DNA from: Candidatus Roizmanbacteria bacterium
Lineage (GTDB): Bacteria; Patescibacteriota; Microgenomatia; UBA1406
NCBI GenBank assembly: GCA_024653645.1
Contig: JANLHK010000064.1
Location: forward strand, 1 to 10,604
Direction of reading: 5' to 3'
DNA length: 10,604 nt
Shown here piece by piece: positions 2,382-8,921 of the stretch; the stretch's first letter is position 1; each line of letters begins with the position of its first letter. Position numbers and translations under genes: made by a program. The notes beneath the pieces were generated by a model that was given only the letters and a program-made list of their open reading frames with translations, made no database searches and had not been told where the DNA came from.

Positions 2382-2387
2382 ATTATA
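2382..2387 (-). promoter_or_regulatory. -10 box of the polymerase gene, leaderless spacing
   Basis: On the minus strand a perfect TATAAT occupies 2387 to 2382, followed by six bases (cacact) and then the ATG at 2375. Transcription would start about on the A of the start codon. No -35 match is visible at 16-18 bases upstream, where an A/T tract lies instead. Confidence 0.65.
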
Positions 2388-2414: not shown

Positions 2415-2420
2415 TATACT
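2415..2420 (+). promoter_or_regulatory. -10 box of mreB, leaderless spacing
   Basis: TATACT sits at 2415-2420, six bases (gaatgg) before the ATG at 2427, mirroring the divergent promoter 28 bases away. Read as TGG-TATATA (2410-2418) it is an extended -10, which could make up for the missing -35. Either reading puts the transcript start within about two bases of the ATG. Confidence 0.6.
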
Positions 2421-3576: not shown

Positions 3577-3589
3577 TGCACGTTAACAA
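3577..3589 (+). promoter_or_regulatory. boxA-like rRNA antitermination element
   Basis: TGCACGTTAACAA matches the E. coli rrn boxA TGCTCTTTAACAA at 11 of 13 bases, including the whole 3' TTAACAA. It lies in the expected leader position, downstream of the candidate promoter and upstream of the processing stem. In rRNA operons boxA loads the NusB/NusE antitermination complex; that role is inferred here. Confidence 0.6.
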
Positions 3590-3600
3590 GTAACTATAGG

Positions 3601-3639
3601 TGGTTCAGAGCGCAGAATGCACTGAACCAGAATTTTTTT
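3601..3639 (+). terminator. Leader hairpin with T tract (mreB terminator or rRNA attenuator)
   Basis: TGGTTCAG (3601-3608) pairs perfectly with CTGAACCA (3622-3629), with a 13-base loop that can close further, followed three bases later by seven Ts (3633-3639). This looks like an intrinsic terminator 82 bases past mreB. The same bases also form the 5' arm of the 16S processing stem, so the two structures exclude each other. It lies downstream of boxA, so antitermination could let rRNA transcripts pass while stopping mreB read-through. Confidence 0.5.
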
Positions 3640-3709: not shown

Positions 3710-5248
3710 TAATTTAAGAGTTTGATCATGGCTCAGGATAAACGTTGGCGGTGTGTCTTAGGTATGCAAGTCGAGCGATCATTCGTTCTGACGCAAGTCA
3801 GAGTGGATGGTAGCGGCGGACGGCTGAGTAACGCGTGGGAACGTGCCCCATGGCAGGGAACAGCTCGCTGAAAGGCGGGGTAATACCCTATACGCTCCAT
3901 TCAGTAATATGGATGGAGGAAAGAGCGTAACTGCTCACCAAGGGATCGGCCTGCGTCCTATCAGGTTGTTGGTAGGGTAATGGCCTACCAAGCCTATGAC
4001 GGGTAGCTGGTCTGGGAGGACGGACAGCCAGAGGAGCATTGAGATACGGGCTCCACTCCTACGGGAGGCAGCAACCAAGAATCTTGCGCAATGGGCGAAA
4101 GCCTGACGCAGCGACACCGCGTGTGGGATGACGCCTCTAGGGGTGTAAACCACTGTGATAGGAGAAGAAGTCCAGCTTGCTGGATTGACGGTACCCTATT
4201 AGAAAGTAGCTGCTAACTACGTGCCAGAAGCCTCGGTTAGACGTAGGCTACGAACGTTATCCGATTTCACTGGGCGTAAAGGGACGCGTAGGCGGCTTAG
4301 TAAGTCGTGCTTTAAATCCCCCTGCTTAACGGGGCGGATGGGCGCGATACTATTGAGCTGGAGTTTTCTTCAGGAGAGCGGAACGTTCTTTGTAGCGGTA
4401 AAATGCGTTGATAAAGAACGGAACACCAAAGGCGAAGGCAGCTCTCTGGAAGTTTACTGACGCTGAGGCTCTAAAGCCAGGGGAGCAAAAGGGATTAGAG
4501 ACCCCTGTAGTCCTGGCCCTAAACGCATGCCTGCTAGTCTTTCTATATCCGGCGTAAGCTGGATGGGAGAGGCGTAAGCTAACGCATTAAGCAGGCCGCC
4601 TGGGGAGTACGGTCGCAAGGTTAAAACTCAAACTGAATAGGCGGGGACCCACCCAACGAGTGGAACATGTGGCTCAATTCGAAACAAACCGAAGAACCTC
4701 ACCAAGGTTTGACATTCTTGTGAAATCCTTATGAAAGTAAGGACCTTTAGACTTTGTTTAAACTATAGAACAGCTGTTGCATGGCTGTCGTCAGCTCGTT
4801 CCGTGAGGAGTGCCCTTAAGTGGGACAACGAGCGCAACCCTTGTCTTGAGTTACAAGTGTCTCAAGAGACAGTCCCGATTATATCGGGAAGGAAGGAGAG
4901 GCGGACGTCAAGTCATCATAACGCTTATACCTTGGGCTGCACACATGTTACAATGAACAGCAACAACGGGCTTGCAACTTCGTAAGAAGGAGCGAATCCC
5001 TGAAATCTGTTCTCAGTGGGGATTGAGGGCTGAAATTCGCCCTCATGAACACGGAATTCGTAGTAATCGCGGATCAGATACGCCGCGGTGAATACGTTCT
5101 TGGGTCTTGCACTCACCGCCCGTCAAGCCACCAAAGTCGAGAGTACCTGAAATATCCCGTTAACTGGGAGACTAGGGTAAATTTGGCGATGGGGACTAAG
5201 TCGTAACAAGGTAGCCGTTCTGGAAGGAGCGGCTGGATCATCTCCTTT
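3710..5248 (+). rRNA. rrs: 16S ribosomal RNA
   Basis: The complete small-subunit rRNA gene, about 1539 bases, with ends placed by alignment to E. coli from memory. Landmarks in order: AGAGTTTGATCATGGCTCAG (3717-3736), ACTCCTACGGGAGGCAGC near 4051, the 530 loop (4221-4242), ATTAGA at 4494-4499, CAACGAGCGCAACCC near 4826, the CACCGCCCGTCA decoding region (from 5114), AAGTCGTAACAAGGTA near 5199, and helix 45 with its GGAA tetraloop (5222-5225). Helix 17 is short. Several normally invariant bases differ: A at 522 with U at 527, U at 532, G at 534, a C inserted between 915 and 916, and U at 1396. The 522-527 change keeps the base pair, which argues for a functional gene and not decay. No intron-sized insertion is present. 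No tRNA or 23S follows, so this gene is unlinked. The divergence fits a CPR bacterium. Confidence 0.97.
5239..5248 (+). other. 16S 3' tail with altered anti-Shine-Dalgarno
   Basis: The tail reads GGCTGGATCATCTCCTTT where most bacteria have GGATCACCTCCTT. The base equivalent to E. coli C1535 is U (5241), so the CCUCC core is UCUCC. An AGGAG still pairs fully, but GGAGG now ends in a G-U wobble. Confidence 0.85.
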
Positions 5249-5267
5249 CTATTTTTTTTTGGAGTGC

Positions 5268-5307
5268 GGTTGCGAGAAAAACAAGGGGAGTGTATTCTGC
5301 GCTTTGA
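5268..5307 (+). other. 3' arm of pre-16S processing stem
   Basis: This is the partner of 3605-3648. Because it must be transcribed with the 16S, the rRNA transcript extends past the T run at 5252-5260 and at least to 5307. The T run can itself pair with AAAAGAA (3671-3677), extending the structure towards the mature ends. No terminator-like hairpin is seen between 5307 and the efp start. Confidence 0.8.
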
Positions 5308-5360
5308 CACCTATAGTTACTTGGAATGCTGCGGTACGATGTAATAATAATCGACTGACT

Positions 5361-5924
5361 ATGCAAATTAGTGCATCAAATCTACGAAGAAAAGAATATA
5401 TCCAATTCCGTGATGATATTTATCAGGTATTGTCTGCCGAATTTTATCATCCCGGAAAAGGGCGTACCGTTATGCGTACTAAGCTGCGCAGTATTACAAC
5501 CGGTAAGGCCGTTGATCAGGTCTTTTCTTCAAATGATTCCATAGAATCGGCTGACGTACAATCAGTACCGGCACAATTTTTATACAACCAGCACGATATG
5601 TTGGTGTTTATGGATGAGATTAATTATGAGCAGCATGAAGTGCCGGTAGTGCTGGCTGAGGATATTGCGGGCCTCTTAAAAGAAGGGCAGTCGATGTATG
5701 TGTTGCTTCATGAGGGCAAACCCATTGGGGTCATTCCTCCCAAAAAAGTAGTGCTGAAAGTAATTGAGGCTGACGCTGCCGTCAAGGGTGATACGGCAAC
5801 CAATGCCAAGAAAAGTGTGAAAGTTGAAACCGGGGCAAGTATTCTGGTACCCCTCTTTATTAAAACTGGTGACACTATTGTGATTAATCCTGAGACTGGT
5901 GAATATACGGGCCGCGAAAATTAA
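5361..5924 (+). CDS. efp: Translation elongation factor P
   Basis: EF-P binds between the P and E sites and rescues ribosomes stalled at polyproline. The 187-residue length equals the family norm (E. coli 188). The N-terminal KOW-like domain has the exposed loop HPGKG (30-34), with K33 at the position of the modified Lys34 of E. coli. The central OB domain holds YLYN-like FLYNQHDMLVFM (73-84). The C-terminal OB domain holds VKGDT (141-145), TGASILVPLFIKTGD (157-171) and the closing NPETGEY (176-182). A TTG at 5259 would add 34 unrelated residues and fall in the T run after 16S, so ATG 5361 is chosen. There is no Shine-Dalgarno. An AATAAT at 5346-5351 could be a weak -10 of its own; otherwise the gene may be read from the rRNA promoter. 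It converges on the operon that encodes its likely modifier, EpmA. Confidence 0.96.
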   Translation: MQISASNLRRKEYIQFRDDIYQVLSAEFYHPGKGRTVMRTKLRSITTGKAVDQVFSSNDSIESADVQSVPAQFLYNQHDMLVFMDEINYEQHEVPVVLAEDIAGLLKEGQSMYVLLHEGKPIGVIPPKKVVLKVIEADAAVKGDTATNAKKSVKVETGASILVPLFIKTGDTIVINPETGEYTGREN

Positions 5925-5927
5925 TCG

Positions 5928-6572
5928 TTATTGCAGAAGTTCTTCAATCGCTGCCGGTAGTTGGATATAGCTTCCTTCAAACTTTACCCCATTGATAAAA
6001 AAGGTCGGTGTTGCGTTAACACCAACAGCATTCCCATCAGCCACATCTTTATTAATCTTGTCTTTAAATTTCTGCTCATCGAAATCTTTAGTGAATTGTT
6101 CTTCATTTAACTGCAGTTCCTGTGCATAAGCGATAAATACTGCACGCACATCCTTGTTTTCACTCCACGCATTTTGCGTTTCATACAGCTTGTCATACAT
6201 TTCCCAGTATTTGCCTTGCGCTCCGGCAGCCTCAGCAGCCAGTGCGGCCGGGAAGGCATTTTTATGAATATTTATTAGCGGAAAATTGCGGACTACAAAG
6301 GTAACATCGTTTTTATGATCCTCTACTATCTGCTTCACCACTGGGTAGGCAGCGCCACAAGCAGGACATTGTAGGTCGGTGAATTCCACCAGGGTAATGG
6401 TGGCATTTTTTGCGGGCCTGATATTACTGTTTGATCGAACCAGCAGCGACGGGTCAATTTGTTTTGTTTCAACCGGTTTATTACTGAACACACTGACGGC
6501 ATATATAACGCCTACGAGAATAGCCAAGGTAATGGCTCCGATACTGATGAGTGTTTTTGTTTCGTTATTCAT
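5928..6572 (-). CDS. Membrane-anchored thiol:disulfide oxidoreductase, DsbA/BdbD type
   Basis: A 214-residue protein with one N-terminal membrane helix (about 8-30) and an extracytoplasmic thioredoxin-fold DsbA domain. The active site is C69-P-A-C72 in the context FTDLQCPACG, and the cis-proline loop is ATPTFFING with P189. This enzyme puts disulfides into exported proteins and is reoxidised by the DsbB-type quinone reductase encoded just upstream. The start overlaps the dsbB end by 8 bases, so expression is coupled. An A-rich run (aaaaaaaac) precedes the ATG in place of a Shine-Dalgarno. The stop lies 3 bases from the efp stop on the other strand, with no terminator visible between. A DsbC/G-like isomerase is less likely, given the BdbD-like layout and the DsbB partner. 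Confidence 0.93.
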   Translation of the reverse strand: MNNETKTLISIGAITLAILVGVIYAVSVFSNKPVETKQIDPSLLVRSNSNIRPAKNATITLVEFTDLQCPACGAAYPVVKQIVEDHKNDVTFVVRNFPLINIHKNAFPAALAAEAAGAQGKYWEMYDKLYETQNAWSENKDVRAVFIAYAQELQLNEEQFTKDFDEQKFKDKINKDVADGNAVGVNATPTFFINGVKFEGSYIQLPAAIEELLQ

Positions 6573-6972
6573 GTTTTTTTTGGTACCAGATCAGGCAACA
6601 AGTAATAATACTAAATGCCATCAAAGAAAGAAAGGGAATGGTCATAAAACCAAACCACTCAATAAACTCAGTGGTGCAGGAAATACCCTGGGCACAGGGA
6701 GTAACGCTTTCAGGAATGAGTTCGTAGTACAACAAGTTATGATACAGGGCGATGAGTAGACCGATGATGCTTAAAGGCAAAGCATACCACTTGATGTTTT
6801 CGTCTTTGCGCGTAATGCCAACGGCGAGGATAATGACGAGCGGGTATAGGAAAATGCGTTGATACCAGCACAATACGCAGGGCGGATATCCCAGGACATT
6901 GCTAAAAATAAGGCTTCCGGCCATCCCAATGAGGGCCTGTATCCAGGCAATATAGAGCAGGTACGGCCTCAT
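6565..6972 (-). CDS. Disulfide bond formation protein DsbB/BdbC
   Basis: A small 135-residue membrane protein with four predicted helices (about 4-26, 39-54, 64-83, 107-129). It carries both redox pairs of the family: C32-V-L-C35 after the first helix, followed by the usual WYQR, and C93/C99 in the second outer loop. It passes electrons from the DsbA-type partner to quinone in the membrane. The length matches Bacillus BdbC better than E. coli DsbB (176). The start overlaps the epmA stop in an ATGA, and the gene overlaps the dsbA-type gene at its end, so the three are translationally coupled. An extra CC at 125-126 lies in the last helix and is probably not catalytic. Confidence 0.93.
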   Translation of the reverse strand: MRPYLLYIAWIQALIGMAGSLIFSNVLGYPPCVLCWYQRIFLYPLVIILAVGITRKDENIKWYALPLSIIGLLIALYHNLLYYELIPESVTPCAQGISCTTEFIEWFGFMTIPFLSLMAFSIITCCLIWYQKKHE

Positions 6973-7886
6973 GAAAATAATGTCGAGCTGGGAAACAGAA
7001 TCACGTCGGATAATTTGGCATACCCGCCTATGACCATTAATAACCGGTCGATGCCCATGGCCGCTCCACAGCAGGGAGGGATGCCTTTTTTCATGGCGTC
7101 CACAAACCCTTGGTCGGGAGTGATCGGATTTTTATGCAATTGCTGACGAATGCGCACCTCTTCCGCTAGATTCTGTTCTAACAGTGTGCCGTCTCCCAAT
7201 TCGGCACAGCCGTTTACCAATTCAATGCCATTTAGGTAGAGCTCAAACCGTTGAGCGATGCCGTTAATGGACGCAGACAACGGCGACTGCATGGCCGGAA
7301 AATCCATAAGGAAGGTTGGCGTCCCGCGTGTTCCCATATTAGGTTCAAGGTATTGCACATACAGCTGGCTAAAGCGGTCGGATGAAAGGGTATCAAAGGT
7401 GTTTCCCTGCAGCTCGTTGCTCGGCACGAATTGTGTAAACGCTTCCTCCATACTGATGCGTTCCCATGGTTTACCGCTATACAGAGGAGGCATCACCGAC
7501 TTTAACAAGCTTTCGGTTTCAGTCATAAACGCCTCATAATCAGAACTGAGTCGGTACCATTCAAGCATAGTAAATTCATGGTTATGCACGCCGTCCAATG
7601 GCTCATTATTACGAAATGCTTTGCCCAGATAAAACAAATTACTCTTGATACCCATGCTTAACAAGCGTTTCAGGTAAGCTTCAGGCGAAGCGGTAAGGTA
7701 GGCGGGGACGGGTTTCATATGGGGCGCTATAAAGGTGGTACTAAACGCTTCCAAATAACTTTCGGGAATGACAGAGGGAACCAGCACCGGCGCATCAACC
7801 TCTATATACGCATGTTTTTCTAAAAAGTTTCTCAGGCCGTGGTTAAGGCTTGACCGCTGTTTGAGTATCTGAATACTATGATCCAT
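6969..7886 (-). CDS. epmA: EF-P lysine ligase EpmA (PoxA/GenX), LysRS-like
   Basis: A 305-residue class II lysyl-tRNA synthetase core without the N-terminal OB anticodon domain, the layout of EpmA (E. coli 325). EpmA activates lysine, preferably (R)-beta-lysine made by EpmB, and attaches it to the tip lysine of EF-P. Visible motifs: LTASPEAYLKRLL (64-76), motif 2 FRN..E...HNHEFTMLEWYR (91-112), the GIELVNGCAEL segment (220-230) and motif 3 GAAMGIDRLLM (274-284). These align closely with E. coli EpmA as I recall it, including the segment PTFLMDFPA (190-198). The motif 2 loop seems one residue longer. It starts 8 bases after the preceding gene, has only a weak AAGG upstream, and overlaps dsbB by four bases. 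Convergent efp with its PGKG lysine supports the assignment. A truncated LysRS is the alternative, made unlikely by the conserved EpmA-specific C-terminus. Confidence 0.92.
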   Translation of the reverse strand: MDHSIQILKQRSSLNHGLRNFLEKHAYIEVDAPVLVPSVIPESYLEAFSTTFIAPHMKPVPAYLTASPEAYLKRLLSMGIKSNLFYLGKAFRNNEPLDGVHNHEFTMLEWYRLSSDYEAFMTETESLLKSVMPPLYSGKPWERISMEEAFTQFVPSNELQGNTFDTLSSDRFSQLYVQYLEPNMGTRGTPTFLMDFPAMQSPLSASINGIAQRFELYLNGIELVNGCAELGDGTLLEQNLAEEVRIRQQLHKNPITPDQGFVDAMKKGIPPCCGAAMGIDRLLMVIGGYAKLSDVILFPSSTLFS

Positions 7887-7894
7887 AGGAAACC

Positions 7895-8860
7895 TTAAGC
7901 ATGATCCATACTTGATAATCCGGTAGCACCAATGGCAAGGGCTAACAACATTAACATCAGTCCGATATTGCCTCCGCTTCGCACTATTTTGTCAGTTATT
8001 TCCTTTCGGCGCTCAGCTGATGCGGTAAATTGCGAAACGGCGCCCAACGCGGCTTCCAGCTCCTGAGCGGTGTACTGAGATGATTTAAGCCATTCGCCTA
8101 TGGTTTTTTGATTTGCTTCTGTTGAGTCTTGGGAAAGAGCGGATACATACGCTTGGTATTGATTACTTACCCCATCAAGGTATGATCGAGTGTTCGAATC
8201 GAGTTTAAGCATAATACCGTTTTCAGTAAGCAGAGGGATAAACTGAGTTAATTCGTCAGGCATAAGCAGAGCGCCTGTTCCATACTGGGTCAGAATCGCC
8301 ATTTGTTTGTTTGCTCGGTCAATGTCATCCTGAACTAATATATTATTACTACGTTTGACCTCAATCCATTTCATGATTTTATCCATACGCTCCTGCGCTA
8401 TATGATAAAACGCACTGCGCGGTATAAACCCCGCTTCACCTACCATACGCTCAAGCACCAGTTTTTGCCGCTGGACCTTAATGGTATATTCCTCATCAGC
8501 AGGATCGAGTTGCTCAAGGGCAACTTGGGCGAGTCGTTCAAAATTTGCCAGTCGTGCTATCTCGGGTGAGGGTACCTCAGCAGAGGTCTGTAACGATTCC
8601 TGTGCGTGTTGTAGAGATTGTATGAGTTGCTCGGGCGACTCTATCGGTGCAGCAAATGCAGTATCCTGCAGGTGGCGACGGACAGGCGCCAGTATGCCGC
8701 GCATCACCAACTGCGCATGTTGTTTGGGAAGCTCAGCTGAAAACTCTGATTGGACACCTTTTTTTTCGGGAAGCGGAGTTGAAGGTCCAATTACCACGTC
8801 AGTTTTGGGGGGTGTGGCAGTGTGTTGGGCTTGTCTTTCAGTGTCAGTATGAGAATCCAT
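7895..8860 (-). CDS. Unknown protein with C-terminal membrane anchor
   Basis: A 321-residue protein I do not recognise. Residues 1-50 are polar, Pro/Thr-rich and probably disordered. Residues about 75-290 are mostly helical and charged, with likely coiled-coil segments near 78-140 and 150-195. A single strongly hydrophobic helix (about 298-314) lies seven residues from the end, so the protein looks tail-anchored with its bulk in the cytoplasm. It has no cysteine. No enzymatic motif is visible. It is the first gene of the operon with epmA, dsbB and dsbA, 8 bases before epmA, and is divergent from the acidic 129-residue protein. A TATACT 11 bases before the ATG predicts a leader of only about 4-5 bases. 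Codon use and product look like a normal expressed gene. No function is proposed. Confidence 0.82.
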   Translation of the reverse strand: MDSHTDTERQAQHTATPPKTDVVIGPSTPLPEKKGVQSEFSAELPKQHAQLVMRGILAPVRRHLQDTAFAAPIESPEQLIQSLQHAQESLQTSAEVPSPEIARLANFERLAQVALEQLDPADEEYTIKVQRQKLVLERMVGEAGFIPRSAFYHIAQERMDKIMKWIEVKRSNNILVQDDIDRANKQMAILTQYGTGALLMPDELTQFIPLLTENGIMLKLDSNTRSYLDGVSNQYQAYVSALSQDSTEANQKTIGEWLKSSQYTAQELEAALGAVSQFTASAERRKEITDKIVRSGGNIGLMLMLLALAIGATGLSSMDHA

Positions 8861-8871
8861 AGATAAGGCCT

Positions 8872-8877
8872 AGTATA
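8872..8877 (-). promoter_or_regulatory. -10 box of the epmA operon
   Basis: TATACT on the minus strand (8877 to 8872), 11 bases before the ATG at 8860. A start 6-7 bases downstream would leave a leader of about 4-5 bases, too short for a Shine-Dalgarno. No good -35 is seen at normal spacing. Confidence 0.5.
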
Positions 8878-8889
8878 CCTAAATTCTTC

Positions 8890-8916
8890 TTGACATTAAT
8901 TGCAAAAACATACAGT
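8890..8916 (+). promoter_or_regulatory. Promoter of the right-hand two-gene unit
   Basis: A perfect TTGACA (8890-8895) is followed after 15 bases by TACAGT (8911-8916), or after 20 bases by TATGTT (8916-8921). The second reading puts the start at about the ATG at 8929. The TTG of this -35 could be mistaken for a start codon. The -10 area is covered by a perfect inverted repeat. Confidence 0.5.
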
Positions 8917-8921
8917 ATGTT
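8907..8921. promoter_or_regulatory. Perfect 15-base inverted repeat, candidate operator
   Basis: AACATACAGTATGTT has two 7-base arms around a central A and no mismatch. It overlaps either possible -10 of the plus-strand promoter and lies 30 bases upstream of the minus-strand -10, a position suited to a dimeric repressor acting on one or both units. The regulator is not identified. Confidence 0.45.

Follow-up and report, generated by a model that had tools for sequence, protein, structure and literature searches.

The 16S rRNA gene of the bacterium analyzed here carries a changed anti-Shine-Dalgarno (anti-SD) core, UCUCC instead of CCUCC, and the strong Shine-Dalgarno (SD) sites of a few of its genes mostly carry the base that complements the change. 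We propose that in this lineage the anti-SD is a live channel that covaries with the SDs of few genes, most other genes starting without an SD, and we put the probability of this explanation as a whole at about 0.85. A sequence-only reading of the same DNA had ascribed the change to relaxed selection on the anti-SD; coevolution of a small set of SD-bearing genes with the rRNA is the better explanation and replaces it. The window, i.e., the whole stretch of 10,604 nucleotides that was analyzed, is contig 59 of a genome of 806 kb in 133 contigs that is 87% complete. This genome is referred to as G000, a member of the same genus as G001, and another member of the same family as G002. The features of the window are listed in Table 1.

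Table 1. Features of the window, with positions counted from its first nucleotide
Feature	Position	Strand	Basis
16S rRNA gene	3710-5248	+	Rfam RF00177, 1309.3 bits, model 1-1533
Expected 16S 3' tail GATCATCTCCTTT	5236-5248	+	Sequence, compared with relatives; DNA position, predicted 3' end
Anti-SD core TCTCC, not CCTCC	5241-5245	+	Alignment with E. coli rrsB and 27 order members
5' arm of long processing-type stem around 16S	3587-3623	+	Inverted repeats I1 and I2
3' arm of long processing-type stem around 16S	5289-5323	+	Inverted repeats I1 and I2
TATAAT, first base at -12 from ATG (2375) of Wzy_C-domain gene; predicted leaderless-type start	2382-2387	-	Pfam Wzy_C
TATACT, first base at -12 from ATG (2427) of MreB-like gene; predicted leaderless-type start	2415-2420	+	Pfam MreB_Mbl
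AATAAT (one mismatch) at -15 from efp ATG (5361), possible -10 box	5346-5351	+	Pfam EFP domains
TATACT at -17 from ATG (8860) of 321-amino-acid ORF	8872-8877	-	
TATGTT (two mismatches to TATAAT) at -13 from ATG (8929) of 129-amino-acid ORF	8916-8921	+	
Four-gene run: 321-amino-acid ORF, epmA, dsbB, dsbA-like	5928-8860	-	ORF ends; Pfam

The changed 16S tail and its distribution

A single 16S match was found in G000 as assembled. Its tail stretch, GGCTGGATCATCTCCTTT, occupies window positions 5231 to 5248, and alignment with E. coli rrsB shows the changed base, at 5241, to be C1535U in E. coli numbering. The gene looks functional, since it is flanked by RNase III-type inverted repeats (3587-3602 and 3605-3623 versus 5289-5307 and 5308-5323) and contains compensated family-specific pairs, which we take to be 53/358, 678/712, 683/707, and 921/1396. 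The 16S gene stands alone: the window matched no 23S, 5S, or tRNA family, and neither 23S nor 5S was matched near the 16S genes of relatives (stretches L104, L127-L128, and L137-L138).

The altered tail that the sequence-only reading had pointed out is real. Aligning the 16S tails of relatives, the check proposed with that claim, showed the identical tail in the separately assembled G002, and an assembly error is thus an unlikely source of C1535U. A 16S match was obtained in 47 genomes of the order, of which 43 tails were read and 4 were unread: the TCTCC core is present in G000 and G002, and the other 41 members read have CACCTCC. No 16S match was found in G001. Among the 83 genomes of the order, the changed pattern is confined to G000 and G002. 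Phylum-wide, 142 of 286 genomes matched the tail when any base was allowed at position 1535, and a T at this position was seen in three of these (G000, G117, and G210). The matches in G117 and G210 were rejected as 16S ends, both genomes also holding a CACC match, which leaves G000; one of these non-16S matches presumably belongs to a gene for RuvB, which it resembles when read in frame.

We then considered a wider scan that took a single genome from each species (84,980 species, according to the text of the tool). The changed pattern was present on 29 contigs, in 10 cases directly behind a 16S anchor. The other 19 matches, 10 of them from Aeromonas, had no 16S anchor in front and were discarded. 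The matches at 16S ends comprised G002, a Patescibacteria group metagenome-assembled genome (MAG) and an Azambacteria MAG sharing the same tail (L003 and L014), three Gracilibacteria, one Peregrinibacteria, one Chitinophagales MAG, and two MAGs of different phyla with an identical tail. It is very likely that the C1535U change had more than one origin. As to the last two MAGs (L006 and L018), labeled Verrucomicrobiaceae and Bacteriovoracaceae, their 16S ends are identical, and since they are assigned to different phyla, at least one of the two contigs is probably misplaced.

The 16S rRNA of the family has further peculiarities. At 15 shared sites, out of 723 examined, it departs from a near-invariant base. 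One of these is G693A, which is unpaired and presumably lies on the E-site side, and another is the replacement of the pair U921-A1396 by A-U. At positions 505/526 of the 530 pseudoknot, the family has U and C and its relatives have C-G. A swapped pair in the 530 loop, C522A together with G527U, is found in all 29 aligned 16S genes of the order, and the usual m7G527 target is consequently absent; rsmG is present in fewer than 10% of CPR genomes according to the consulted part of PMC12641178. Six tails of family f3 (L033, L035, L039, L052, L056, and L072) read TGAATCACC, compared to TGGATCACC in the others, at a site that adjoins helix 45.

A small set of strong SDs that match the changed tail

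The gene encoding bS21, rpsU, was found in 77 of the 83 genomes of the order, the remaining 6 giving no match; second rpsU matches in G065 and G031 were dropped. All 77 genes read are preceded by a strong SD, the weakest pairing at -12.3 kcal/mol. The base that faces position 1535 is a G in each of the 74 genomes of canonical type and an A in all three family genomes. Whereas the 74 canonical SDs pair at a mean of -16.0 kcal/mol with their own tail and at -13.4 kcal/mol with the changed one, the opposite holds in the family: the SD TTGGAGATG of G000 and G001 pairs at -13.5 kcal/mol with its own tail and at -8.8 kcal/mol with the canonical tail, and the SD AAAGAGAGATG of G002 pairs at -14.4 and -9.7 kcal/mol, respectively. 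The tail of G001 was taken to be that of its genus mate, and the three family genomes are not mutually independent. When sampled starts were ranked by SD strength, rpsU was 3rd of 162 in G000, 2nd of 165 in G002, and 1st or 2nd in the five controls.

Other lineages with the changed tail gave mixed results. (i) In the Peregrinibacteria MAG, AAAGGGGATGA precedes rpsU, with an A facing 1535 and pairing energies of -18.8 kcal/mol with its own tail versus -14.1 kcal/mol. (ii) No SD was detected before rpsU in the two Azambacteria-type MAGs and the Chitinophagales MAG, and no bS21 match was obtained in the three Gracilibacteria genomes. (iii) In the pair of MAGs with a common 16S end, the rpsU SD is absent from one and is canonical, with a G, in the other.

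Across the phylum, 71 genomes had an rpsU match above the family cut-off and 69 of these were used, the window's own genome and G103 (contig edge) being left out. Another 23 genomes with matches below the cut-off were excluded, and 4 of the 69 lacked a start codon close to where it was expected. Strong pairing, at -12 kcal/mol or below, is seen in 42 of the resulting 65 genes, whereas 15 pair more weakly than -5 kcal/mol. The facing base is a G in 46 genes, including all 42 strong ones, and is unpaired in 19; none of the 65 combines an A facing 1535 with a canonical tail.

The covariation extends to atpE. An A faces 1535 before this gene in all three family genomes, which pair at -20.0, -20.0, and -16.3 kcal/mol with their own tails. 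Among the 24 controls, 17 have a G there and the other 7 do not pair with 1535. The atpE SD of G000 and G001, AAAGGAGATGA, is complementary to the tail over 11 nucleotides. The start of rplL was readable in four genomes, with an A in G000 and a G in G005, G019, and G002. In G000, rplL pairs at -19.5 kcal/mol with its own tail versus -14.8 kcal/mol, and both atpE and rplL thereby exceed rpsU in SD strength. In G002, the old tail pairs better with rplL than its own (-17.8 versus -15.2 kcal/mol); we read this case as a wobble intermediate, and it also counts against complete compensation. Since the products of atpE and rplL are subunits needed in many copies, some SDs of this type may be plain boosters outside a bS21 circuit.

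Further SDs that match the family's own tail were found before an S1-like gene of G000 (a small gain, -14.4 versus -13.0 kcal/mol; the gene was named by eye, its first 90 residues having no Pfam match) and, in G001, before rplR and a gene for a 68-amino-acid protein. The SD of the latter (L358, G001:C8), again AAAGGAGATGA, matches the changed anti-SD over 11 nucleotides, and the first 60 residues of the protein gave no Pfam match. The motif GGAGATG precedes five sampled genes of G000 and G001 and GGAGGTG none, as opposed to 0 and 5, respectively, in the five controls and 0 and 1 in G002. The overall abundance of the two 7-mers is equal, with 30 each in G000 and 15 each in G001. In the SD-poor genome of the control G019, a 358-amino-acid ORF (L136, start 3200, minus strand) with an N terminus that appears by eye to be pilin-like or secreted has an SD of -21.2 kcal/mol, which is among the strongest.

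Translation starts of the remaining genes

To quantify SD use, we sampled approximately 280 kb of G000 and 240 kb of G002, together with 397 kb from five canonical relatives. Only genes with an unambiguous ATG were kept, starts being dropped if they had a second in-frame ATG within 60 nucleotides, an upstream stop more than 120 nucleotides away, or an N. The SD cores GGAG, GAGG, and AGGA were scored before the start and in a background zone. At starts versus background, there were 14 versus 13 cores among 161 genes of G000 and 7 versus 16 among 164 genes of G002. Pairing at -12 kcal/mol or stronger was seen at 6 of 337 and 4 of 266 ORFs, the second figure probably including spurious ORFs. The canonical relatives gave 5 versus 7 of 63 (G005), 6 versus 5 of 68 (G019), 5 versus 8 of 39 (G004), 5 versus 2 of 49 (G010), and 3 versus 2 of 52 (G014), amounting to 24 of 271 in both zones. 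The same scan is able to detect SDs, since an excess was recorded in 50 kb of E. coli (11 versus 4 of 25) and in Aeromonas pieces (13 versus 2 of 33). SDs are thus about as scarce in the sampled relatives with an intact CCUCC, and C1535U is not what made them scarce.

Within the window, we counted nine gene starts (ten had been given previously), and pairing with the genome's own tail bore out that they have no clear SD: the strongest values were -5.2 kcal/mol for epmA (AAGG) and -4.7 kcal/mol for the dsbA-like gene, the other seven starts pairing at -1.8 kcal/mol or more weakly. The sampled genes at large show no SD enrichment, but the broader statement that no gene uses an SD is not supported, as a few genes keep very strong SDs. 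In the same manner, GGAGA is not enriched at starts genome-wide and is found before the small gene set.

What was said of leaderless starts agrees with a strong signature at the heads of transcription units. A TATAAT-like box starting at -18 to -8 is present before 76 of 133 heads in the family (background, 22 of 133) and before 58 of 102 control heads (background, 14 of 102). In the family, the box begins at -17 to -12 in 12, 3, 11, 13, 14, and 19 cases, respectively, and at -11 in 2, so that it peaks at -12 from the ATG and drops at -11. Several observations characterize this signal. (i) Before in-frame internal ATGs, the box occurs in only 152 of 2,728 (family) and 128 of 1,488 (controls) cases. 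(ii) In 500 composition shuffles, the maximum was 44 for the family and 45 for the controls, and the observed counts were never reached. (iii) TATAAT tops 19 other arrangements of the same letters in each group. (iv) A -35-like signal 16 to 18 nucleotides upstream is weaker and small. A peak at -12 is expected if transcription begins at the A of the ATG or a few bases before, and the mRNAs of the heads probably carry no leader or one not exceeding about 5 nucleotides, the leaderless mRNAs themselves being predicted from DNA. In Deinococcus and in bacterial surveys, leaderless initiation has reportedly been found together with a -10 box immediately ahead of the start codon, and the position of the box at heads resembles that type, which is here a prediction from DNA.

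What was said of translational coupling agrees with the many genes close behind a same-strand neighbor, 67 of 161 in G000 and 63 of 164 in G002; genes classed as neither head nor internal were left out of the head and internal counts. The members of the four-gene run in the window are separated by gaps or overlaps of a few bases and pair at -5.2 to -0.3 kcal/mol, which is consistent with translational coupling. Next to this run, efp (5361-5924) lies near a gene with a lysyl-tRNA-synthetase fold (6969-7886) that we take to be EpmA-like, following its earlier naming, and the DsbA/DsbB pair lies between them.

Alternative explanations, known systems, and implications

The data suggest the following sequence of events. 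Most genes would start without SD pairing, heads being probably leaderless or provided with short leaders and operon-internal genes being largely coupled, and a small set (rpsU, atpE, rplL, and probably the S1-like gene, rplR, and the gene for the 68-amino-acid protein) would have kept strong SDs. In an ancestor of the family, the anti-SD would have changed from CCUCC to UCUCC. This step may have been tolerable because few genes depended on the anti-SD and because U can still form a wobble pair with G. Next, the SDs of the small set would have changed from G to A opposite position 1535, so that a U-A pair took the place of C-G. The base change with its distribution, the few SDs of the samples, the position of the -10-like box, and the covariation at rpsU and atpE are direct observations; that ribosomes use these SDs, and the order of these events, are what we infer from such patterns.

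Under relaxed selection, by comparison, SD use would have been lost, the anti-SD would drift, and C1535U would be a neutral step of decay. The SD-poor genome samples, the lack of an rpsU SD in some other lineages with a changed tail, and the uncompensated rplL of G002 are in line with this possibility, as are surveys in which, in the consulted part of PMC6107228, organisms without CCUCCU mostly lack matching SDs. Yet the five sampled canonical relatives are equally SD-poor and have kept CCUCC, so that having few SDs does not alone erode the anti-SD, and the SDs of rpsU and atpE are changed at precisely the one facing base in all three family genomes each. We therefore regard relaxed selection as unlikely. 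Somewhat less likely still is that another partner of the 16S tail, e.g., Era or KsgA in rRNA maturation, drove the change and the SDs followed. Era was found in all 13 genomes searched, and a KsgA-like protein scored below the family cut-off in G000 (104.5 bits, C122), G002 (119.9 bits, C7), and also G014 (159.6 bits, C5), the other ten genomes having at most 26 bits or no match. However, of 83 Era columns that are otherwise fixed, the family differs from 10 relatives at 5, all of them outside the GxxG loop, and rpsU and atpE would still require pairing. An artefact of sequencing, assembly, or binning, or a nonfunctional 16S copy, is highly improbable even for a fragmented MAG such as this one, given the same tail in G002, the compensated rRNA pairs, and the matching SDs on other contigs of G000.

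The coevolution of rRNA and SDs that we favor has parallels. In Flavobacteriales, according to the consulted parts of PMC9976891 and PMC8710568, the 16S tail is sequestered by bS21, bS18, and bS6, rpsU has an extended SD that is favored by bS21-lacking ribosomes, and Chryseobacteria and relatives have the anti-SD UCUCA with a complementary rpsU SD. The present lineage resembles these cases in that an SD-poor genome has an exceptionally strong rpsU SD that covaries with the anti-SD and in that a C-to-U change at 1535 is accompanied by a complementary change before rpsU. It differs in that it belongs to another phylum, one base is changed rather than the two of UCUCA, atpE and (in G000) rplL take part, so that strong SDs are not essentially confined to rpsU as in the Bacteroidota type, and heads look leaderless. 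Ribosomes with C1535U are dominant negative in E. coli, where they fail to support growth (PMC8710568, Table 1). If the analogy with Bacteroidota holds, ribosomes poor in bS21 may favor rpsU through its SD, and a tail sequestered by bS21, bS18, and bS6 is putative here; we give autoregulation of bS21 through the rpsU SD slightly less than an even chance.

Taxa with variant anti-SDs include the 128 exceptional taxa of PMC6107228; the class iv table of such taxa includes Absconditabacteria, Campbellbacteria, Peregrinibacteria, and Wolfebacteria, and such organisms are mostly treated as not using SDs in the parts consulted of PMC6107228 and PMC10783764. In that part of PMC6107228, no variant anti-SD is perfectly matched by a variant SD, with the exception of three AAAA motifs. 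The window lineage shares with these taxa a variant core and few SDs, but differs in that a few of its genes match. The archaeon Acidilobus sp. 7A has a changed core and compensatory changes in most leaders, as described in the consulted part of PMC10783764; rRNA and SDs have likewise changed together in the window lineage, but only few genes are involved, whereas SDs are abundant in the archaeon. In the openly licensed literature, searched at the level of titles and abstract openings, we found nothing on rpsU SD use or on anti-SD/SD covariation in Patescibacteria.

Taken together, compensation before more than one gene indicates an anti-SD that is still in use and points to the genes concerned. 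For the window lineage, the covariation qualifies the view of variant anti-SDs as mostly a loss of function, and it extends to Patescibacteria the rpsU pattern known from Bacteroidota, providing sequence evidence on initiation in a mostly uncultured phylum. Why the anti-SD persists where most genes do not use it becomes a question that can be tested. More tentatively, and with odds that we consider to be somewhat against it, much of Patescibacteria may have two initiation systems, namely, leaderless starts by default and, for a few genes (rpsU, atpE, rplL, and others), an SD regulon that is read by ribosomes in a state set by bS21; such a wide reach is consistent with the strong rpsU SDs in 42 of the 65 sampled Patescibacteria, in which rpsU alone was scored. 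If this is true, the family would amount to an orthogonal-ribosome experiment performed by nature, its rRNA and the larger part of its SD regulon having moved together from C-G to U-A.
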